Virus record (IMG/VR): IMGVR_UViG_3300043468_001827
Location: 1-53,543 of that record
Length of the DNA: 53,543 nt
From: a virus
Direction: 5' to 3' (one strand)
Part shown: positions 20,347-45,354 of the stretch, in pieces
Position numbering within the stretch: the first letter of the stretch is position 1
How the letters are laid out: each line of letters begins with the position of its first letter
Position numbers and translations under genes: made by a program
The notes under the pieces: model-generated
The model's database searches: none
What the model was told of the DNA's origin: nothing
Seen by the model: the letters and a program-made list of their open reading frames with translations, nothing else

Positions 20347-21072
20347 TTAATCCCACAATCCTTGATAATATTTGCCAAACAAACGGAAACCATTTTGCAT
20401 ACGGTCATGGACCTTTTGCATACCATCATAATCACATTTGAATGTGTTCTTTGGTCCATCGGCCATCTGGTAAAACTTGTGTTCACCCTTTGGTACTTCG
20501 TTGCCATCTTTGTCAACAGGCACCCATTTAATATCAATATCACCTTCTCGGTAAGCTTCTTCCCAAGAATCATCGACCTTGTGTTCAAATGCAAAAATCA
20601 TTTCATCGAGGACATAATCCCATCTTTTGAAATGATTGTCATCCGTATCATATTCGTTTTCTTTTGGTGGTGCGGATGTAGATTTTAATTCATCTGGTAC
20701 ATCTTTATCGTCAACATGAGGTGCACCATGTTTGGTGTCTCGCAATTGTTTCAACATCGGAAGAATGATGTATGAAAGGGTGTGGTCCATTGACCAAGTA
20801 TCCCACTTATCAATCTTCACATAATTAATTTTGCGGTCAATTTTATCCCAGACCCATTGAATTGCTTTACTGATAGGTGTTAAACGGTCGGACCATTTTT
20901 CAACCCATTCAGGATGCTCAATGTATTTGTATTTACCATCCAATTCATCCAATGCAGATTGAATGTTACTATTGCGGCTGCATTTTGACCAGTCTGTCCA
21001 AAAGAACATGTAGTCTAAAATTGTATATGGACTAATCCAATGGTCTTTATACTTATTGATGTAAATCTTCAT
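20347..21072 (-). CDS. Conserved phage protein of unknown function
   Basis: 241 residues with many Trp/Tyr/Asp (YKDHWISPYTILDYMFFW, RKINYVKIDKWDTWSMD, FRLFGKYYQGLWD). The pattern DTWSMDHTLSYIILPMLKQL is familiar from many phage genomes of marine and enteric bacteria, but no function is known to me. Its start overlaps the 50-aa gene upstream by 20 nt. Confidence 0.65.
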   Translation of the reverse strand: MKIYINKYKDHWISPYTILDYMFFWTDWSKCSRNSNIQSALDELDGKYKYIEHPEWVEKWSDRLTPISKAIQWVWDKIDRKINYVKIDKWDTWSMDHTLSYIILPMLKQLRDTKHGAPHVDDKDVPDELKSTSAPPKENEYDTDDNHFKRWDYVLDEMIFAFEHKVDDSWEEAYREGDIDIKWVPVDKDGNEVPKGEHKFYQMADGPKNTFKCDYDGMQKVHDRMQNGFRLFGKYYQGLWD

Positions 21073-21205
21073 AACTTTTCACTTTATCAATATTACGAAT
21101 ATCAGAGATTCTTTTTCTTTGTAACGAATTACCTAACCAACGAAATTTGGTACACAAGGTACACTTACAAACTCGTTTTGATTTTTTTCTTTTGTAATTT
21201 GCCAT
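21053..21205 (-). CDS. Small basic Cys-containing protein
   Basis: 50 residues from MANYKRKKSKRVCKCTLCTK (21205). The longer frame to 21256 would extend into the tmRNA gene and is rejected. KRVCKCTLCTKFRW could bind a metal. Very basic and probably nucleic-acid binding. Lies directly after the tmRNA coding piece. Confidence 0.55.
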   Translation of the reverse strand: MANYKRKKSKRVCKCTLCTKFRWLGNSLQRKRISDIRNIDKVKSYEDLHQ

Positions 21206-21209
21206 AGAA

Positions 21210-21582
21210 TTCTTGCAGAGTGATTGGGTAATAAGGTACACTCTGCGAAACCTCATCTATCCTTAAGCGGCTAGAGCAAATCTTTCGTCATTTGCGTTTA
21301 CTTTGTTTTGATTTTTACGCCTTGTCTGACGATTCTCCAGTTTTCTACTCATTGCCCTGTCGAGACCAGGTCACCCCCATCAAAAAAAGACATGAACCAA
21401 AATCAAAATTGTTAATAGTGTGATTACTATTACTTCATATGGTTTCAATCATATCTCCTTTTGGTGGAGGTGTCGGGAATCGAACCCGAGTCCAGAACAC
21501 CTTTCAATTACCTTCAACGAATTAGGTGTGATGGTCAGCTTTCGCTTTTGCTACCGAATACTCGGTTCGTACCACCACATAA
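21210..21582 (-). ncRNA. ssrA: Circularly permuted two-piece tmRNA
   Basis: On the minus strand the 3' tRNA half comes first and the 5' half second. Acceptor piece ~21578-21462: it opens with an 8-bp helix GTGGTGGT/ACCATCAC and ends with a T arm TCGGG-TTCGATT-CCCGA, then CACCTCC, A73 and CCA (21462). An 83-nt intervening segment follows. The coding piece starts at 21378 with GGGGGTG, which pairs with CACCTCC and includes a G3-U70 wobble, the alanine identity element. The D-like region is GACCTGGTCTCGACAGG. The tag frame 21295-21263 encodes ANDERFALAA then TAA. Rescues stalled ribosomes. The exact 3' end of the coding piece is uncertain. Confidence 0.9.
21263..21295 (-). other. tmRNA proteolysis tag reading frame (ANDERFALAA)
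   Basis: Ten codons GCA AAT GAC GAA AGA TTT and so on, then TAA, within the tmRNA coding piece. It ends in ALAA, the ClpXP/ClpAP degron. From memory this tag matches those of betaproteobacterial tmRNAs such as Bordetella/Ralstonia. It is not a free-standing protein gene. Confidence 0.85.
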
Positions 21583-21588
21583 AACAAT

Positions 21589-21617
21589 ATTGTATCAGAT
21601 ATTATGATACTTGTCAA
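21589..21617 (-). promoter_or_regulatory. Sigma70-like promoter of the tmRNA
   Basis: Minus strand TTGACA (21617-21612), 17-bp spacer, TACAAT (21594-21589). Transcription would begin near 21582, a few bases before the first helix of the acceptor piece. It overlaps the 3' end of the exonuclease gene. Confidence 0.8.
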
Positions 21618-22263
21618 TATATTTATTCAATCCTGCCAGGTAATGTTTTTTGTCCTCTATGAATATCTGAGGTTGTTGATTTTCTACGGCAATTGCAATT
21701 ACGATTTGGTTAATGGAAATGCCTGTTCGTTCTCCAAACATTTCTGCGTAGGCTGAGGCTTGCATAAAATAATTGGCAATTTGGTCTTTCTCTTTGGAGT
21801 AATTTGCGGTCTTCCAGTCAATGATGGAGATTTCTCCGTTCCATTCTCCAATGCAGTCACATCTTCCTGCAAGGCGTAATTCATCACTAAACAAGGGTTG
21901 TTCGATGCCATAAATGTTATTTACATGCGTATCTAAAAAAGGTTTTAATTTCAAAAATAATTCTTTTGTATCAGGCATTACTGAGTGCATTTGAAGTGGT
22001 GACATTTCATTGAGTAAATACTTTTCAACAGTATTGTGCAATTTGGTGCCACGACCTGATGCTTTGCGAGATATGCGATTTGCCTCTTCTTCACCAACTC
22101 TTTGTCGCCATTCGTAAATAGCTTGTTTGTTATACGATGATAACACCGTAGTAATAGACGGATAAACATTGCCTGTTGGCGTTTTGTATGTTCTACCACT
22201 TTCGGTTGTTACAGATTCTAATTCAAAATTTAAGGCATCTAGTTTTACATGGTTAAAATTCAC
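21595..22263 (-). CDS. PD-(D/E)XK exonuclease (RecB-like)
   Basis: 222 residues. After a YPSITTVLSSYNK segment (substrate recognition start), the core reads RGTKLHNTVEKYL (His/Glu), then RLAGRCDCIGEWNGEISIIDWKTA, where D and D-W-K are the PD-(D/E)XK ligands and lysine. QASAYAEMFGERTG follows as the typical QxxxY motif of the RecB/Cas4 group. Common in T4-like marine phages; probably acts in recombination or host DNA degradation. Confidence 0.85.
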   Translation of the reverse strand: MNFNHVKLDALNFELESVTTESGRTYKTPTGNVYPSITTVLSSYNKQAIYEWRQRVGEEEANRISRKASGRGTKLHNTVEKYLLNEMSPLQMHSVMPDTKELFLKLKPFLDTHVNNIYGIEQPLFSDELRLAGRCDCIGEWNGEISIIDWKTANYSKEKDQIANYFMQASAYAEMFGERTGISINQIVIAIAVENQQPQIFIEDKKHYLAGLNKYIDKYHNI

Positions 22264-40965: not shown

Positions 40966-41040
40966 TGGTGGGCCAGGTGTGAATTGAACACACACTCAAG
41001 CGATTATGAGTCGCCTGCTTTACCATTAAGCTACTGGCCC
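40966..41040 (-). tRNA. tRNA-Ile (CAT, lysidine type)
   Basis: Cloverleaf with 7-bp acceptor GGGCCAG/CTGGCCC and encoded CCA. Anticodon loop CTCATAA. The anticodon arm AGGCGACTCATAATCGCTTG equals that of E. coli tRNA-Ile2, so C34 is probably modified to lysidine to read AUA. Confidence 0.8.
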
Positions 41041-41058
41041 GAACTTGAATTGATTTGT

Positions 41059-41134
41059 TGGCCCGGCTGGCAGGAATCGAACCCACATCGGACGCTTTAG
41101 AAGAGCGTTGCCTTATCCATTAGACCACAGCCGG
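41059..41134 (-). tRNA. tRNA-Arg (TCT)
   Basis: Acceptor CCGGCTG/CAGCCGG, discriminator G, CCA encoded. Anticodon stem ACGCT/AGCGT with loop CTTCTAA. Reads AGA/AGG, rare in many hosts. Confidence 0.9.
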
Positions 41135-41139
41135 TTATT

Positions 41140-41220
41140 TGGTGCCCCTAATCGGATTCGAACCGATAGTTATGACACTCCTTTTGAGAGAGCCGCCTTT
41201 ACCAATTTGGCCATAGGGGC
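41140..41220 (-). tRNA. tRNA-Leu (CAA)
   Basis: Acceptor GCCCCTA/TAGGGGC. Anticodon loop CTCAAAA; the anticodon stem has two G-U pairs. Variable region is short for a leucine tRNA (~10 nt). Anticodon CAA reads UUG. Confidence 0.8.
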
Positions 41221-41225
41221 ATTAA

Positions 41226-41308
41226 TGGTGCGGATGGACGGAATCGAACCGTCAAGCCGAAGCGAGAGATTTTAAGTCTCTTGTGTTTACCTATTTCACC
41301 ACATCCGC
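41226..41308 (-). tRNA. tRNA-Leu (TAA)
   Basis: Acceptor GCGGATG/CATCCGC. Anticodon arm AGAGA-CTTAAAA-TCTCT, variable arm with a short stem, T loop TTCGATT, CCA encoded. Confidence 0.9.
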
Positions 41309-41318
41309 ATTGTATCGT

Positions 41319-41352
41319 ATTATATACAAAAACTATATGATTTGTATATAAT
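41319..41352. repeat. 12-bp perfect inverted repeat between two tRNA-Leu genes
   Basis: ATTATATACAAA (41319-41330) and TTTGTATATAAT (41341-41352) with a 10-nt loop. AT-only stem between tRNA-Leu(TAA) and tRNA-Leu(TAG). It could be a protein-binding site, a precursor processing structure or part of a promoter (it contains TATAAT on the minus strand). Confidence 0.7.
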
Positions 41353-41361
41353 GTGTTACAT

Positions 41362-41438
41362 TGGTACCCAAGGAGAGATTCGAACTCTCAAACTACGGCT
41401 TCTAAGACCGCCGACTTTACCAATTTGTCCACTCGGGC
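41362..41438 (-). tRNA. tRNA-Leu (TAG)
   Basis: Acceptor GCCCGAG/CTTGGGT with G-U pairs. Anticodon loop CTTAGAA, T loop TTCGAAT, CCA encoded. Reads CUN by extended wobble. Confidence 0.85.
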
Positions 41439-41443
41439 ATATT

Positions 41444-41519
41444 TGGTGCAACCTCCAAGAATCGAACTTGGTTCATCGGTTCTTCAAACCGCTGCTATAA
41501 CCACATCAGCTAAGGTTGC
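41444..41519 (-). tRNA. tRNA-Phe (GAA)
   Basis: Acceptor GCAACCT/AGGTTGC-like pairing, anticodon loop TTGAAGA, CCA encoded. The first anticodon-stem pair (G27-A43) is a mismatch. Confidence 0.85.
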
Positions 41520-41520
41520 A

Positions 41521-41595
41521 TGGTGCATCCTGATGGAATCGAACCACCGGTATCCGTCTTGTAAGGGCGGCGTTTTACCATTAAACTAAGGATGC
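41521..41595 (-). tRNA. tRNA-Val (TAC)
   Basis: Acceptor GCATCCT/AGGATGC, anticodon arm CCGCC-CTTACAA-GACGG with one C-A mismatch, T loop TTCGATT, CCA encoded. Confidence 0.87.
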
Positions 41596-41596
41596 G

Positions 41597-41670
41597 TGGG
41601 TTGAACCGGGGAATCGAACCCTCTCTACCTGTTTCACAGACAGGTGTGCGACCACTACACTAGGAACAAC
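41597..41670 (-). tRNA. tRNA-His (GTG), weakly paired
   Basis: Anticodon arm CCTGT-CTGTGAA-ACAGG is perfect. The acceptor (GTTGTTCC with GGTTCAAC, including the extra G-1:C73 pair typical of histidine) has two U-U mismatches, and the T stem has only three good pairs. CCA encoded. Either a tolerant phage tRNA or one in decay. Confidence 0.75.
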
Positions 41671-41676
41671 ATTGAT

Positions 41677-41750
41677 TGGAGCGGCTACTGAGAATCGAAC
41701 TCAGGACAGGAGATTGGAAATCTCCAGTTTTACCACTAAACTACAGCCGC
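41677..41750 (-). tRNA. tRNA-Gly (TCC)
   Basis: Acceptor GCGGCTG/TAGCCGC, discriminator U, anticodon arm GGAGA-TTTCCAA-TCTCC, CCA encoded. Confidence 0.9.
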
Positions 41751-41754
41751 AATT

Positions 41755-41828
41755 TGGAGCGGAATGTGAGAATCGAACTCACGACTAAACCTTGGCAAGG
41801 TTTCGTTTTACCATTAAACTAATCCCGC
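41755..41828 (-). tRNA. tRNA-Gly (GCC)
   Basis: Acceptor GCGGGAT with ATTCCGC, discriminator U, anticodon arm AAACC-TTGCCAA-GGTTT, CCA encoded. Its first ten bases overlap the 3' end of the protein gene at 41819-41983. Confidence 0.9.
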
Positions 41829-41983
41829 TTATTTTTTTCCTTAACTAAAGGGTTATCTTCAATACTCATATCATACAAACCGTGTTCTTGTGCAAAGTCT
41901 GTAAGTTTTTGCAAGGCATCAAGAACACAATCTTCGGTGGATAAAAAGTCCTGATAATCTGTTTTTTCTTTTTCTAGTTTCAT
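41819..41983 (-). CDS. Small acidic protein overlapping a tRNA (54 aa)
   Basis: 54 residues: KLEKEKTDYQDFLSTEDCVL, DALQKLTDFAQEHGLYDM, ending KEKNKRD. Start couples to the preceding gene by ATGA (41980-41983). The stop codon lies inside tRNA-Gly(GCC), so the last three codons and the tRNA 5' end share DNA. Role unknown. Confidence 0.6.
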   Translation of the reverse strand: MKLEKEKTDYQDFLSTEDCVLDALQKLTDFAQEHGLYDMSIEDNPLVKEKNKRD

Positions 41984-42450
41984 GCTACTTTTAATCCTTT
42001 CAATCTGTCTGCTGCATACGATGCCGCAAACGCTTCTGGTTTAACTAAAGGTATTACATTACATGTTCCACGAATGTAACCAATTGCTTCTTGAATCACA
42101 CAATTTGAACCATGCATTTCACTTGGGTTAATATCCAAATGAACTTCCACATATCTATTATCCAAAACATCCGCAAGTTTTAAATATAATTCGGAAACTT
42201 TGTAAACTTCATTCATTAATCTATATCTAGGTTTATTTTGTTTTTGGTCGTAGTCTCTTTCACGGACAACTTCACCAAATAATTTACAACCATTGTTACC
42301 ATTTATATGAACAACAATAGCGGTGATGTAATCTGCATACCAAACTTTATTTACCTTAATACGCTCTGAATCACAACCAATATAAATTTTGGTTTCAGGT
42401 GTTTGTGCTTCGATGAAAGATTTAACTTCCTCTAAGTCTAACTTACGCAT
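41980..42450 (-). CDS. RNase H-fold phage protein
   Basis: 156 residues. KIYIGCDSERIK and GEVVRERDYDQKQNKPRYRL, followed by EVHLDINPSEMHGSNCVIQE, match the RNase H-like family seen in phages and Bacillus (DUF458-type) with D/E/D ligands in the expected strands. Nuclease activity is plausible but unproven. Placed inside the tRNA array. Confidence 0.7.
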   Translation of the reverse strand: MRKLDLEEVKSFIEAQTPETKIYIGCDSERIKVNKVWYADYITAIVVHINGNNGCKLFGEVVRERDYDQKQNKPRYRLMNEVYKVSELYLKLADVLDNRYVEVHLDINPSEMHGSNCVIQEAIGYIRGTCNVIPLVKPEAFAASYAADRLKGLKVA

Positions 42451-42474
42451 GATTACTCACTTTCTTTTTAAAAT

Positions 42475-42548
42475 TGGCACCCCGCTAGGGACTCGAACCC
42501 CAACCAACGGTTTTGGAGACCGCTATGCTGCCATTACACCAGCGAGAT
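42475..42548 (-). tRNA. tRNA-Trp (CCA)
   Basis: Acceptor ATCTCGC/GCGGGGT, discriminator G, anticodon arm GCGGT-CTCCAAA-ACCGT, T loop TTCGAGT, CCA encoded. Confidence 0.88.
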
Positions 42549-42553
42549 ATGAA

Positions 42554-43012
42554 CTACTTTATTTCATTTACTTTTTTCTGTATTTCAGAATGTGGGACTT
42601 TTAAAAAAAATCCAGGACTTTTATTTCCTATGCCACTATCGTCAAAAAAATTATCAAATGAAATTCGGTATTTTCGAAAATCAACATCTACCGTTTTATA
42701 TGCTCCAATTGTAATTACATATTGTGGCATTTTTAAACCATTCTTTTGTTGATATTCTAAAACTTGTTTAACTGCAACTGCACCTAAACTGTAACCATAC
42801 AATTCATATTCACCTTGAATGTTTCGAATGTGTTTTAACGATTCATTTACTTTTAGTGAACTGAATATAATTGGTTTTAAATTTCTTTGTTTTGCATATT
42901 CTTTAAATGCAACTTCATCAAAAACTTCATTCTTACCACGAAAACCAATAATGTCATTTGCATGACATTGTAACGCATAAAAGAATAAAGATAAAAATAA
43001 AATTTTTTTCAT
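42554..43012 (-). CDS. Secreted alpha/beta-hydrolase-like protein
   Basis: 152 residues from KKILFLSLFFYALQCHA signal peptide (start 43012); upstream codons of the open frame would overlap tRNA-Ile. The centre has YELYGYSLGAVAVKQVLEY, a G-x-S-x-G nucleophile elbow, after a beta strand. No clear His/Asp partners identified, and it is short for a full hydrolase. Likely periplasmic esterase-like or a degenerate member. Confidence 0.6.
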   Translation of the reverse strand: MKKILFLSLFFYALQCHANDIIGFRGKNEVFDEVAFKEYAKQRNLKPIIFSSLKVNESLKHIRNIQGEYELYGYSLGAVAVKQVLEYQQKNGLKMPQYVITIGAYKTVDVDFRKYRISFDNFFDDSGIGNKSPGFFLKVPHSEIQKKVNEIK

Positions 43013-43024
43013 AATAGTAATTTT

Positions 43025-43099
43025 TGGTAGCCATGGACAATTTCGAAATGTCGACCTATCGCTTATCAAGCGATTGCTCTTCCTCTGAGCTACACGGCT
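43025..43099 (-). tRNA. tRNA-Ile (GAT)
   Basis: Acceptor AGCCGTG/CATGGCT, anticodon arm ATCGC-TTGATAA-GCGAT, T loop TTCGAAA, CCA encoded. Confidence 0.9.
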
Positions 43100-43160
43100 A
43101 AAACTTTCTTAAATACAACCACAATAGAAACATAATGAAAATAACTGGAATAATAGCCAT
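43098..43160 (-). CDS. Possible 20-aa membrane peptide
   Basis: MAIIPVIFIMFLLWLYLRKF, preceded by AAAGGAAAAAACATA. It fills the space between tRNA-Arg(ACG) and tRNA-Ile(GAT) and its stop overlaps the tRNA-Ile 5' end by two bases. Very short, could be chance. Confidence 0.3.
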   Translation of the reverse strand: MAIIPVIFIMFLLWLYLRKF

Positions 43161-43178
43161 TATGTTTTTTCCTTTAAT

Positions 43179-43255
43179 TGGCACGCCGTGAAAGATTCAA
43201 ACTCTCAACCTTAGGGTCCGTAGCCCTACGCTCTATTCAATTGAGCTAACGGCGT
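43179..43255 (-). tRNA. tRNA-Arg (ACG)
   Basis: Acceptor ACGCCGT/ACGGCGT, discriminator G, anticodon arm TAGGG-CTACGGA-CCCTA, CCA encoded. Needs host TadA to convert A34 to inosine. Confidence 0.9.
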
Positions 43256-43261
43256 ATTGAT

Positions 43262-43335
43262 TGGTGGAGGATGAGAGAATCGAACTCTCAATCTCGGCTT
43301 GCAAAGCCGATGTTATCCCATTTAACTAATCCCCC
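43262..43335 (-). tRNA. tRNA-Ala (TGC)
   Basis: Acceptor GGGGGAT/ATCCTCC with the G3-U70 alanine identity pair, anticodon arm TCGGC-TTTGCAA-GCCGA, CCA encoded. Confidence 0.92.
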
Positions 43336-43536
43336 AAAAAGTTGTAAGCTACGATTTCCACATCGCCCCTACATGAGTTGCACACCCTGTCACCATGTTT
43401 TGTTTCCTCAGTAGTTATGGTTCTACTCAGCGGTTCGAGCTCCCTATGTTGGTGGGCACCTTTCTTAACGGTTGACCGCCCCCGGTTATTGTCGCATAAC
43501 GAGCGGCAGTAATATCGCTTACTGCGGACGGGATTT

Positions 43537-43539
<3 letters not shown>
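43326..43539 (-). pseudogene. GC-rich spacer with headless reading frame (structured spacer E0)
   Basis: Between the CCA of tRNA-Pro and the 5' end of tRNA-Ala. One minus frame is open throughout and looks like real protein (VRSKRYYCRSLCDNNRG, then RELEPLSRTITTEETKHGDR, VCNSCRGDVEIVAYNFLGD) but has no ATG, GTG or TTG before its C-terminal part. The DNA shares CGTCCGCAGTAAG, same frame, with 24302-24494. It also holds a 7-bp hairpin GCAGTAA/TTACTGC, and its ends pair weakly (CCAAAA/TTTTGG) like the other tRNA spacers. Confidence 0.45.
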
Positions 43540-43613
<74 letters not shown>

Positions 43614-43620
43614 ATGAAAT

Positions 43621-43696
43621 TGGTGCTGGAGAAAGGATTCGAACCCTCGACCGCCTGATTACAAATCAGGAGCTCTACCAACTGAGCTACTCCAGC
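43621..43696 (-). tRNA. tRNA-Thr (TGT)
   Basis: Acceptor GCTGGAG/CTCCAGC, anticodon arm CCTGA-TTTGTAA-TCAGG, T loop TTCGAAT, CCA encoded. Confidence 0.92.
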
Positions 43697-43702
43697 ATTG
43701 AT

Positions 43703-43778
43703 TGGCTGTCTAGGCAGGGCTCGAACCTGCGACCAAATGATTAACAGTCATCTACTCTACCAACTGAGCTACTAGACA
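43703..43778 (-). tRNA. tRNA-Asn (GTT)
   Basis: Acceptor TGTCTAG/CTAGACA, discriminator G, anticodon loop CTGTTAA, T loop TTCGAGC, CCA encoded. Confidence 0.92.
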
Positions 43779-43785
43779 ATAAAAC

Positions 43786-43859
43786 TGGTTGCGGGTGATG
43801 GAATCGAACCACCATCTGAAGCTTATGAGACTTCTGAATTACCGTTACTCTAACCCGCT
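43786..43859 (-). tRNA. tRNA-Met (CAT), initiator-like
   Basis: Anticodon loop CTCATAA. The acceptor pairs only at 2-7 (GCGGGT/ACCCGC); position 1 (A) faces A72, an unpaired end that is the key initiator feature. 5' AGCGGGTTAGAG also resembles initiator tRNA. But the anticodon stem GAAGT/GCTTC lacks the three G-C pairs of classical initiators. Confidence 0.8.
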
Positions 43860-43866
43860 ATAAACT

Positions 43867-43941
43867 TGGCGACCCGTAGGAGAATCGAACTCCTATATTC
43901 CGCTAGACAGGCGGATATAATAACCACTATATGAACGGGCC
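43867..43941 (-). tRNA. tRNA-Asp (GTC)
   Basis: Acceptor GGCCCGT/ACGGGTC, discriminator G, anticodon arm TCCGC-CTGTCTA-GCGGA, CCA encoded. Its first two bases belong to the inverted repeat of spacer E1. Confidence 0.92.
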
Positions 43942-44026
43942 AATATAGAAACACATTCTTGGATTCTCGTAAAAGTAATCCATGACGCCGGCCGTCATTA
44001 TGTGTTTGAATGTGTTTTTATATTGG
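43940..44026 (-). ncRNA. Structured tRNA spacer E1 (three-way junction)
   Basis: Terminal arms 43940-43958 and 44008-44026 pair over 19 bp with one mismatch (plus CCAATATAGAAACACATTC with GAATGTGTTTTTATATTGG). Inside are two hairpins: ATGACG/CGTCAT with a GC-rich loop, and GGATT/AATCC. The outer arms include the CCA of tRNA-Lys and the first bases of tRNA-Asp, so the element joins the two tRNAs in the precursor. A 23-codon open frame lies within it. Confidence 0.65.
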
Positions 44027-44098
44027 TAGGTGCGGAGAATTTCGAAATCTCGACTTACCGGTTAAAAGCCGGTTACTCTGCCTCTGAGTTACACACCT
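44024..44098 (-). tRNA. tRNA-Lys (TTT)
   Basis: Acceptor AGGTGTG/CGCACCT, anticodon arm ACCGG-CTTTTAA-CCGGT, T loop TTCGAAA, CCA encoded and overlapping spacer E1. Confidence 0.92.
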
Positions 44099-44100
44099 TC

Positions 44101-44176
44101 TGGTGGTGATGGAAGGAATCGAGCCTTCGACCTTTTGCGTATGAAGCAACTGTTCTACCGACTGAACTACATCACC
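44101..44176 (-). tRNA. tRNA-Met (CAT), elongator-like
   Basis: Acceptor GGTGATG/CATCACC fully paired, anticodon loop TTCATAC, T loop CTCGATT, CCA encoded. Paired 1:72 suggests elongator. Confidence 0.88.
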
Positions 44177-44348
44177 ATAATTGAGAATACTGCCGTCCGT
44201 TTAAGACTATAAAATCGTCCCTATATTCTCATCCTAAACCCACCACAGGTTTCTTCCTCGGATAATGAGGTGGACTAATACAGGTTGGTACACCCTCGGC
44301 AGTCAGGTAGATGGTTAGTCGTCCTTGCTTTCGGATTCTCAATTATGG
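44175..44348 (-). ncRNA. Structured tRNA spacer E2
   Basis: Perfect 14-bp terminal arms CCATAATTGAGAAT (44175-44188) and ATTCTCAATTATGG (44335-44348) enclose ~146 nt. A second internal helix ACTGCCG/CGGCAGT lies just inside. The arms take in the CCA of tRNA-Tyr and the first bases of tRNA-Met. GC content is higher than neighbouring protein genes. No convincing protein frame. Confidence 0.65.
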
Positions 44349-44431
44349 TGGGTGCCCTAGGATTTGAACCTAGAAGGCCGAAACAACGGATTTACAGTCC
44401 GCCCCCGATACCATTACGGGACTAGACACCC
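44346..44431 (-). tRNA. tRNA-Tyr (GTA)
   Basis: Class II tRNA: acceptor GGGTGTC/GGCACCC, anticodon arm GCGGA-CTGTAAA-TCCGT, long variable arm, T loop TTCAAAT, CCA encoded. Confidence 0.92.
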
Positions 44432-44607
44432 AAAATTCAGAGCACTAAAGCGAAAGACTGCTATTACATGATGCCGAAGCGGTACTAACGCATCAAACCT
44501 TTGCTCAACTCATTTCTGAGACGGTCGTGCATGCCGTTTAGAACGGCCCGTTTTATTATTATGATATAATCTACCAAGCATATTGTGCTTGTATCACAGT
44601 TAGTTAT
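44432..44607 (-). other. Structured spacer E5 between E3 and tRNA-Tyr
   Basis: GC-rich 176 nt without a tRNA. Hairpins: CAAGCA/TGCTTG, TGATGC/GCATCA with an inner CGCTTCGGC-type loop, and a GGCCGTT/AACGGC stem. A 15-codon frame (MHDRLRNELSKGLMR) is present, without a clear ribosome site. No outer inverted repeat abutting tRNA-Tyr was found, unlike E1-E4. Confidence 0.4.
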
Positions 44608-44757
44608 ACCATATCAAAGTGTTATCTACCAATTTGTGAACAATGTAGCTAACACTCACAAGCGAATAGCGGTTATATCAGGACCTTTTCCTCGCACAGT
44701 TAGGCCCGCATAGTCATGGCGTCCCATGACGATACCCTGATAACACTTTGATATGGT
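44608..44757 (-). ncRNA. Structured tRNA spacer E3
   Basis: Perfect 19-bp terminal arms (ACCATATCAAAGTGTTATC at 44608-44626; its complement at 44739-44757). The upper arm begins with the ACCA end of tRNA-Glu. The interior has a GTCATGG/CCATGAC hairpin and GC-rich segments. A 23-codon frame (MGRHDYAGLTVRGKG...) occurs inside. Confidence 0.68.
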
Positions 44758-44829
44758 ACACCTAGGGGGAATCGAACCCGCCGTTTATGCCTTGAAAGGG
44801 CATCGTCCTAACCGTTAGACGATAGGTGC
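44754..44829 (-). tRNA. tRNA-Glu (TTC)
   Basis: Acceptor GCACCTA/TAGGTGT, anticodon arm ATGCC-CTTTCAA-GGCAT, T loop TTCGATT, CCA encoded and overlapping spacer E3. First tRNA after the promoter at 44863-44890. Confidence 0.92.
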
Positions 44830-44834
44830 AAAAT

Positions 44835-44857
44835 CAATTCAAATTTTTAATGAACAA
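44835..44857 (-). promoter_or_regulatory. boxA-like leader element 2
   Basis: Minus TTGTTCATTAAAAATTTGAA then TTG, 21 of 23 bases equal to the element at 45361-45383. It starts right after the expected transcription start and precedes tRNA-Glu. It resembles rRNA boxA (TGCTCTTTAACA type), the NusB/S10 antitermination site. Confidence 0.55.
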
Positions 44858-44862
44858 TACGA

Positions 44863-44890
44863 ATTATACACTAACTGGCCGAACTGTCAA
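44863..44890 (-). promoter_or_regulatory. Sigma70-like promoter of the tRNA group
   Basis: Minus TTGACA, 16 bp beginning GTTCGGCC, TATAAT. Drives tRNA-Glu and downstream tRNAs. Confidence 0.82.
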
Positions 44891-44897
44891 GTCTGTT

Positions 44898-44915
44898 TGT
44901 TGCCAGATTACAACA
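44898..44915 (-). repeat. TGTTG-N8-CAACA hairpin
   Basis: Same 18-nt format as at five other promoters (loop CCAGATTA on plus), 7 nt upstream of the -35. Confidence 0.75.
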
Positions 44916-44941
44916 CTACTTTTGTTTTCAATTTACTAACA

Positions 44942-45018
44942 TGGAGTGGGTGACAGGATTCGAACCTGCATAATACGGATTTGCAATCCGCTACCTCGCC
45001 TTTCAGTTGCACACCCAC
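44942..45018 (-). tRNA. tRNA-Cys (GCA)
   Basis: Acceptor GTGGGTG with CACCCAC, discriminator U, anticodon arm GCGGA-TTGCAAA-TCCGT, T loop TTCGAAT, CCA encoded. Confidence 0.9.
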
Positions 45019-45023
45019 ATATT

Positions 45024-45111
45024 TGGCGGAAGATATCAGAATCGAACTGATCCACCCATTTCTGAATGACGGTTTAGCAAACCGCTGCCTTAACCACTCG
45101 GCCAATCTTCC
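45024..45111 (-). tRNA. tRNA-Ser (GCT)
   Basis: Class II with long variable arm; acceptor GGAAGAT/ATCTTCC, anticodon arm GCGGT-TTGCTAA-ACCGT, CCA encoded. Confidence 0.92.
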
Positions 45112-45190
45112 ATATTAAAACACACTATCTCTCTTTATTGTCGGAGCCCACGGTGAAGAACTCGCTCCTCGATAATGTGTTTTGATATGG
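45110..45190 (-). ncRNA. Structured tRNA spacer E4
   Basis: 15-bp terminal arms with one G-U (CCATATTAAAACACA at 45110-45124; TGTGTTTTGATATGG at 45176-45190), including the CCA of tRNA-Ser(TGA) and the first bases of tRNA-Ser(GCT). Inside is a long hairpin based on GGAGC/GCTCC. Confidence 0.65.
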
Positions 45191-45277
45191 CGGAAGCGGT
45201 GAGATTCGAACTCACGGAACATTTCTGTTCGCTAGTTTTCAAGACTAGTGCCATAAACCGGACTCGGCCACACTTCC
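45188..45277 (-). tRNA. tRNA-Ser (TGA)
   Basis: Class II; acceptor GGAAGTG with CGCTTCC, anticodon arm CTAGT-CTTGAAA-ACTAG, long variable arm, T loop TTCGAAT, CCA encoded. Confidence 0.92.
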
Positions 45278-45280
45278 ATT

Positions 45281-45354
45281 TGGCAGGCGCATCAGGGCTC
45301 GAACCTGAAATAACGGATTCAAAGTCCGCTGTGTTACCATTACACTATGCGCCA
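45281..45354 (-). tRNA. tRNA-Gln (TTG)
   Basis: Anticodon arm GCGGA-CTTTGAA-TCCGT, T loop TTCGAGC, CCA encoded, discriminator G. Acceptor pairs at 2-7 with a U1-U72 mismatch; weak 1:72 pairing is normal for glutamine tRNAs. Confidence 0.9.

Follow-up and report, generated by a model that had tools for sequence, protein, structure and literature searches.

Introduction

Permuted tmRNA genes are known from the Alpha- and Betaproteobacteria and the Cyanobacteria (Rfam families RF01849, RF01850, RF01851 and RF04321), and the permuted precursor is described as being cut into two pieces by tRNA-processing enzymes (PMC11915505). The spacer between the pieces has so far been treated as sequence that is missing from the mature RNA. 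The same source reports that the spacer of one permuted tmRNA contains a tRNA-Ala gene and that of another a repetitive element. These resemble the locus described here in that the spacer hosts extra sequence, but that sequence is an RNA gene or a repeat, and the available text of the source does not mention protein genes in spacers. It also describes group I introns with homing endonuclease genes in tmRNA genes, where a protein gene likewise lies inside a tmRNA gene, but within a self-splicing intron in the T loop rather than in the spacer of a permuted gene. We found no account of protein genes in permuted-tmRNA spacers in the open-access literature searched; a ribosome profiling study of Sinorhizobium meliloti (PMC10117765) reports the tag peptide and, in its available text, does not mention a spacer open reading frame (ORF).

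A two-piece tmRNA in a phage is by itself neither new nor rare, because such genes have been published (PMC9004378) and are common in viral contigs. The published case is that of the Methylophilales phage Melnitz, and the same paper suggests a two-piece form for 53 of 133 unique phage tmRNA structures. The Melnitz ssrA gene is reported to be alpha-like and to carry a glutamine riboswitch, and the third gene upstream of it encodes a PDDEXK nuclease. The available text of the paper makes no mention of an ORF in the spacer and the sequence record annotates none, yet we found one there.

Here we describe a permuted tmRNA gene in the viral contig IMGVR_UViG_3300043468_001827, which was analysed over its whole length (53,543 bases, classed linear; hereafter the window) and has genes resembling those of T4-like myoviruses (gp32-like, T4 RNase H-like, baseplate and tail proteins). 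Two-piece phage tmRNA being already known, what is new is a permuted phage tmRNA in which a small gene very probably occupies the spacer.

A permuted tmRNA gene of betaproteobacterial type

An earlier note on this DNA, made from the sequence alone, had proposed a circularly permuted, two-piece tmRNA with its own promoter on the minus strand. ARAGORN, run on the window, called a permuted gene (tmRNA*) at 21172-21554 with the tag ANDERFALAA, which together with the anatomy of the minus strand bore this proposal out. The covariance-model check that the note had asked for gave 128.6 bits for beta_tmRNA (RF01850; cut-off 84, E 6.1e-39) and 127.1 bits for tmRNA_permuted (RF04321; cut-off 47, E 1.5e-24), with the whole model covered in both cases and both scores far above chance level. 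The betaproteobacterial affinity that the note had given for the tag was matched by Rfam, in that beta_tmRNA was the model retained for the clan at this site, against the alpha and cyanobacterial models. Read 5' to 3' on the minus strand (21617-21210), the locus consists of a promoter, a structured leader, the acceptor piece, an 83-nt spacer and the coding piece, with the following features.

21595-22263, minus strand: upstream neighbour, exonuclease gene (phrog_298), with the -35 box in its 3' end
21589-21617, minus strand: likely sigma-70 type promoter, TTGACA-N17-TACAAT with extended -10 (TG), 11/12 matches, similar in relatives
21521-21580, minus strand: structured 5' precursor leader, containing a motif that recurs inside the spacers of relatives
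21462-21525, minus strand: tmRNA acceptor piece, 5' boundary approximate (ARAGORN, Rfam, parsing)
21489-21473, minus strand: T arm
21472-21466, minus strand: acceptor 3' strand, CACCTCC
21465, minus strand: A73
21464-21462, minus strand: encoded CCA
21379-21461, minus strand: intervening segment (spacer), 83 nt, predicted long hairpin continuous with the acceptor stem
21455-21460, minus strand: AAGGAG, putative Shine-Dalgarno sequence for the nested ORF and at the same time 5' arm of the closing helix
21380-21448, minus strand: nested ORF, TTG start, 22 codons, (M)KPYEVIVITLLTILILVHVFF
21382-21380, minus strand: TGA stop of the nested ORF, with 21379 as the only base between it and G1
21215-21378, minus strand: tmRNA coding piece, 3' boundary approximate, with D-like region and tag frame (ARAGORN, Rfam)
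21378-21372, minus strand: acceptor 5' strand, GGGGGTG, with G1 at 21378
21263-21295, minus strand: proteolysis tag frame ANDERFALAA and TAA (ARAGORN)

The gene order is permuted, with the T arm, acceptor 3' strand and CCA ahead of the acceptor 5' strand and the tag. The seven-pair acceptor stem with G3-U70 that the note had read formed in full, with G3 (21376) opposite U70 (21468), and the tag frame closed with a TAA stop. In the region of helix P2 and the pseudoknots the Rfam alignment, made with a model that contains no pseudoknots, spanned the region with some non-standard pairs. Gene order, Rfam scores, acceptor stem and tag confirmed that the phage encodes a permuted (two-piece) tmRNA of the betaproteobacterial type, its hallmarks intact.

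The proposed promoter was likewise located, and is a likely one. A scan of the region returned no more sites than expected from shuffled sequence (three against a mean of 2.9), but TTGACA-N17-TACAAT was the best of the three. Of 16 relatives with a tmRNA no more than 350 nt from the exonuclease gene, 13 had a similar site where that gene ends (all but L007, L014 and L015; L numbers denote collected loci). A nuclease gene upstream of the tmRNA gene is a feature that the locus shares with Melnitz. Unlike the alpha-like Melnitz gene, the beta-type gene in the window showed no glutamine riboswitch, nor any other known RNA in 21000-21700, that was convincing by Rfam at E values up to 5. Among the bacterial permuted tmRNAs collected, L629 also encodes ANDERFALAA. 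The window gene encodes CCA whereas L629 reads ACCC; CCA was encoded in 33 of the 45 bacterial permuted genes examined. Capture of the window gene from a host is plausible.

Permuted tmRNA genes in other viral contigs

A tag-pattern scan of viral contigs gave at least 119 stretches. We assembled 498 records (the window and viral loci, some overlapping) from searches that listed part of all matches, and ARAGORN called at least 330 permuted and at least 11 standard tmRNA genes in them. Both acceptor strands, the CCA and the spacer were parsed in 326 of the 330 permuted records (L098, L123, L126 and L416 were left out). Some of the 330 are overlapping loci on one contig, and the 326 represent 252 distinct genes with 230 unique spacers, which in some relatives exceed 200 nt. 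G3-U70 was present in all 326, as read by a parser that mildly favours GGG. Named phages with permuted tmRNA genes included Alcaligenes phage vB_Af_QDWS595 (L669 954-1330) and Xanthomonas phage XacN1 (L670 955-1375), in both of which the gene is unannotated, and Brevundimonas phage Bajun, in which it is annotated. Several loci (L182, L255, L166, L175, L263, L726 and others) had predicted tags of about 28-31 residues, e.g. ANADTFDFSAMSFTGNSVSGKSKVALAA; the commonest tag length reported in PMC11915505 is 10.

Spacers were grouped by the way in which they had been obtained. The content-blind sample (68 unique spacers) came from exonuclease, tag and T-arm searches. The pattern-drawn sample (at least 162 unique spacers) was selected for WAAGGA after the CCA and TGATGGG at the end. 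An alpha-type T-arm search gave at least 120 stretches, from which 118 loci were read, yielding 70 permuted genes and 64 unique spacers, 27 of them shorter than 60 nt. No complete tRNA gene was found by ARAGORN in 255 unique spacers of at least 60 nt, no known RNA family other than tmRNA reached the Rfam gathering cut-offs over the spacers of 18 chosen loci, and a DNA-pattern search over the collected loci gave no match. Non-coding spacers of L691, L754, L059 and L038 contained T-arm-like hairpins that resemble tRNA remnants.

A covarying helix closes the spacer

Pairing between the spacer ends was assessed in 66 of the 68 content-blind unique spacers (those of at least 30 nt) and compared with re-dealt arms. 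Position 5 was paired in 66/66 spacers through six different pair types, compared to 29.4 with re-dealt arms (maximum 39), and positions 7 and 8 were paired in 64 and 62 of the 66 (37.8 and 36.7 when re-dealt). Positions 2, 3, 4 and 6 were near-invariant or no better paired than re-dealt arms and thus carried little information. In the pattern-drawn set position 7 was paired in 156/162 spacers (73 when re-dealt). The 3' end read UGAU in 224 of the 230 unique spacers, which can partly pair with the ACCA opposite.

The window spacer begins with AAAGGAGATATGA, next comes TTG AAA CCA TAT GAA ... TTT TTT TGA T, and G1 follows. Its predicted fold was a single long hairpin that includes the acceptor stem and all of the spacer (-48.8 kcal/mol, z -2.77; energy matched by 1/200 shuffles), in which the Shine-Dalgarno sequence and the start region pair with the last codons. 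Among 123 ORF-bearing spacers beginning with WAAGGA, the minimum-energy fold paired the Shine-Dalgarno sequence with the spacer end in 122 and formed the acceptor stem in all 123. A covarying helix therefore joins the Shine-Dalgarno sequence to the last codons and the stop, and the same bases serve as Shine-Dalgarno sequence, last codons, stop and closing helix.

Nested ORFs in the spacers of phage permuted tmRNAs

ORFs that have a Shine-Dalgarno sequence and 15 or more codons were found in 130/162 pattern-drawn unique spacers, a large set chosen by a pattern that itself demands AAGGA and TGATGGG, and in 9/68 content-blind unique spacers, of which some may be due to chance. The same reservation applies to the alpha-type sample, where ORFs with a Shine-Dalgarno sequence extended over at least 60% of the spacer in 12 of 64 (3 of the 12 had also appeared in the pattern scans). 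For comparison with chance, spacers were clustered, their ends were held fixed and the interior was dinucleotide-shuffled 200 times. Among 102 pattern-drawn representatives, 53 contained an ORF whose start lay close to the Shine-Dalgarno position and whose stop was the closing TGA itself (shuffle mean 3.59, maximum 10), and in 69 an ORF covered 60% or more of the spacer (shuffle mean 8.16, maximum 15). The corresponding counts in 44 content-blind representatives were 9 (shuffle mean 2.76, maximum 9), a weak excess, and 12 (shuffle mean 4.41, maximum 10). In the content-blind set, ORFs over at least 60% of the spacer were present in 6/6 spacers starting with WAAGGA and in 6/38 others. Among the 221 unique spacers of at least 60 nt in the content-blind and pattern-drawn samples, 76 (the window included) had an ORF that stopped at the closing TGA, 17 an ORF with an earlier stop and 33 an ORF that read on into the coding piece, while 95 had none by this criterion.

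Selection was examined in 47 pairs of ORFs of equal length, with each ORF used once. Differences at codon positions 1, 2 and 3 numbered 214, 113 and 412, and dN was lower than dS in 40 of the 43 pairs with dS above 0. We attribute the three pairs with dN>dS to incorrect frame assignment in a family whose ORF continues into the coding piece, and 4/47 pairs had no usable dS (in L399/L401 the sole difference was non-synonymous). In a stricter set of 28 pairs in the same register the counts were 91/44/190, and codon changes were synonymous in 145 cases and non-synonymous in 107; nine pairs of ORF-less spacers gave 14/9/13. Pairs within families share ancestry and are thus not independent events. 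By sequence comparison, these results show purifying selection on nested ORFs across phages, with a signal that is thin in the window's own family.

The 126 predicted nested products, of 19-84 codons including read-on parts, fell into 46 loose clusters (E 0.001, single linkage), the largest of which is artificially enlarged in part by tails that derive from the tmRNA sequence. Of the 126, 59 contained a hydrophobic stretch that could form a membrane helix, and the longest product wholly inside a spacer had 73 residues (L725). One product belonged to DUF2061 (72.6 bits, Pfam cut-off 23.1) and another, from L714, to DUF6356 (34.2 bits, cut-off 24.4); the L714 ORF has no clear Shine-Dalgarno sequence and reads on into the coding piece. 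DUF2061 also matched part of a phage record that belongs to no tmRNA and is antisense to the annotated genes, and a homologue of a third nested family is Melnitz gene 85, the immediate upstream neighbour of ssrA. Matches outside tmRNA in named phages were thus obtained for two of the seven nested families searched, and the other five had no match in named phages. The Melnitz spacer itself contained an unannotated ORF with a Shine-Dalgarno sequence, running on into the coding piece, and a homologue 82% identical to it was found in the spacer of L742.

Spacers of bacterial permuted genes

A match over the Rfam cut-off was present in 109 of 299 bacterial genomes, all from the phylum of a Paracoccus genome (Pseudomonadota). 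The 89 strongest matches (at least 96.7 bits) had a median span of 216 nt and a maximum of 332. With a parser slightly different from the one used for viral genes, spacers were obtained for 45 genes from 50 loci, of which 15 had been picked for their long span and the 332-nt L645 was left out. These spacers measured 5-89 nt and 0/45 began with the AAGGA arm. A Shine-Dalgarno ORF was found in 1/45 (L654, 18 codons, GTG ten bases after AAGG), and its frame agrees neither with the closing helix nor with the layout seen in phages. None of 120 bacterial stretches with the AAGGA spacer pattern, among the matches listed, contained a tmRNA by ARAGORN, a result that is uninformative. Bacterial permuted tmRNAs agree with the window in order, T arm, pairing, G3-U70, tag and Rfam score, but the 45 spacers compared, all from this phylum, are short and do not begin with AAGGA, whereas the spacer in the window and in many of its relatives is very probably a protein gene.

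The nested ORF of the window and its lineage

The spacer ORF, which the earlier note had overlooked together with its Shine-Dalgarno sequence, very probably represents a small gene, and this is the more unusual part of the locus. A start codon, a Shine-Dalgarno sequence at a normal spacing of 6 bases and an in-frame stop were all present, and the 22-codon frame would encode a hydrophobic peptide. The spacer was identical in 11 records, which by name are 7 distinct contigs including the window. It differed by one synonymous base in L003, a gene with another tag (ANDEKFALAA). In L198, which also has another tag, ATG stands at the position of the window's TTG and 11/21 following residues are shared (dN 0.38, dS 1.61). 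With one synonymous change and remote homologues on one side, and a short frame with a TTG start on the other, support for the window's own ORF as a gene is moderate.

Among relatives chosen by the exonuclease, those at 99-100% identity had the window's ORF, L007 (89%) and L008 (85%) had other hydrophobic ORFs in the spacer, and L010 to L015, L026 and L034 (68-75%) had spacers without such an ORF; 10 of 34 exonuclease relatives had no permuted tmRNA within the DNA examined. The spacer slot turns over fast in this lineage. L003 and L004 (tag ANDESYALAA) shared the acceptor half with the window and had the same or nearly the same spacer, but differed in the tag and 3' end (window 21300-21215), and the coding piece thus looks mosaic among phages.

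Discussion

The reading that we favour, and consider likely, is that the phage encodes, in the window, a permuted tmRNA of the betaproteobacterial type and that its spacer doubles as a small messenger. Judged from the sequences compared, this spacer very probably contains a small gene, in a pattern common to many phages. One promoter would give a single precursor comprising the leader, the acceptor piece with its CCA, the spacer and the coding piece. The helix of the spacer ends would extend the acceptor stem and join the two halves, and is presumably the structure that the maturation nucleases encounter; their cuts would free two mature pieces for ribosome rescue with host SmpB. Before cutting, or in uncut molecules, ribosomes would start at the spacer Shine-Dalgarno sequence and produce a 22-residue hydrophobic peptide that ends at the TGA one base before G1. 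The sequence of this peptide suggests that it may act at the membrane. As the Shine-Dalgarno sequence and start region are predicted to pair with the last codons, translation and folding should compete. A ribosome on the ORF would prevent the helix from closing, and the helix once closed would mask the Shine-Dalgarno sequence, so translation would be most likely on the nascent precursor, favoured until the 3' arm is transcribed and ceasing once that arm appears.

If this arrangement holds in many phages, a rescue RNA and an mRNA would share one precursor, and the translation start and stop signals would be the helix that joins the tmRNA halves. It would also bring to light a set of easily overlooked small phage proteins (the 46 loose clusters, with the Melnitz one unannotated), and the link between translation and tmRNA production could be tested in a cultured phage such as Melnitz. 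A wider interpretation, which we regard as possible but doubtful, is that the spacer acts as a widespread translation-maturation switch in phages. A translated precursor could then neither fold nor mature, while failure of spacer translation would let the helix close, the acceptor stem form and tmRNA be made, so that output of the rescue RNA would sense initiation in the infected cell. On this interpretation the conserved ends would offer a Shine-Dalgarno sequence (AAGGA) and a stop (UGAU), and the slot would therefore repeatedly capture small genes.

Several alternatives to a spacer that doubles as a small messenger were weighed. The nested frame could be a leader peptide, in which the act of translation rather than the product tunes the helix and tmRNA maturation. 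Ribosomes there should affect folding, since the Shine-Dalgarno sequence and stop (in the window the start codon too) lie within the helix beside G1, and a slot filled by many unrelated sequences, the 46 loose clusters, would suit such a role. We nevertheless consider it unlikely, as the amino-acid sequence is conserved, which a pure leader does not need, and products reach 73 residues, some of them in known families. A function of the nested product and regulation by its translation can hold together.

It is also quite unlikely that the permuted tmRNA of the window is of the ordinary kind and its spacer a non-coding hairpin, the window ORF being chance or the relic of a nested gene while others may be real. 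The 95 of 221 unique segments without such an ORF, the short spacers with which bacterial permuted genes manage, the brevity and TTG start of the window ORF and the approximately 3.5% of shuffled segments that yield such an ORF (3.59/102) are consistent with it. However, the window ORF has a normally spaced Shine-Dalgarno sequence, a strongly hydrophobic product and a stop exactly at the closing TGA, as do 76 unique segments including the window in this last respect; moreover, the L198 homologue starts with ATG in register and the L003 change is synonymous only.

A phage RNA that serves as a decoy, titrating SmpB or the host tmRNA pathway rather than working as a tmRNA, is very improbable. There is precedent in a tag-less phage tmRNA-like RNA (DS6A) reported as a tmRNA inhibitor (PMC11915505, PMC4131195), and no SmpB gene was found in the 53.5-kb fragment, but the window has kept G3-U70, the encoded CCA and a complete tag with the ALAA ending, it matches tmRNA_permuted from end to end, and G3-U70 is retained in every parsed relative. 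That the halves are separate transcription units with a small gene between them by chance, as relatives' spacers of more than 200 nt might allow, is extremely improbable, since covariation between the spacer ends, in one helix that prolongs the acceptor stem, implies a single precursor.

Other features of the window

A cluster of 26 tRNA genes for 19 amino acids, in which no tRNA-Tyr was found, occupies 4.4 kb at 40966-45354. A small ORF with close-set cysteines (CKCTLC), noticed by eye, begins at the 3' end of the tmRNA gene and runs on the same strand (21205-21053). The leader-type RNA motif (around CGAACCGAGUAnnCGGUAGCrAA; window 21580-21521) had no convincing Rfam match in the window. With overlapping loci counted, it gave 16 hits in tmRNA leaders, 10 inside tmRNA spacers (those of L011, L012, L014, L026, L034, L132 and L135) and 1 further hit in L268, which has no parsed tmRNA. 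This motif may be a relocated RNA module.
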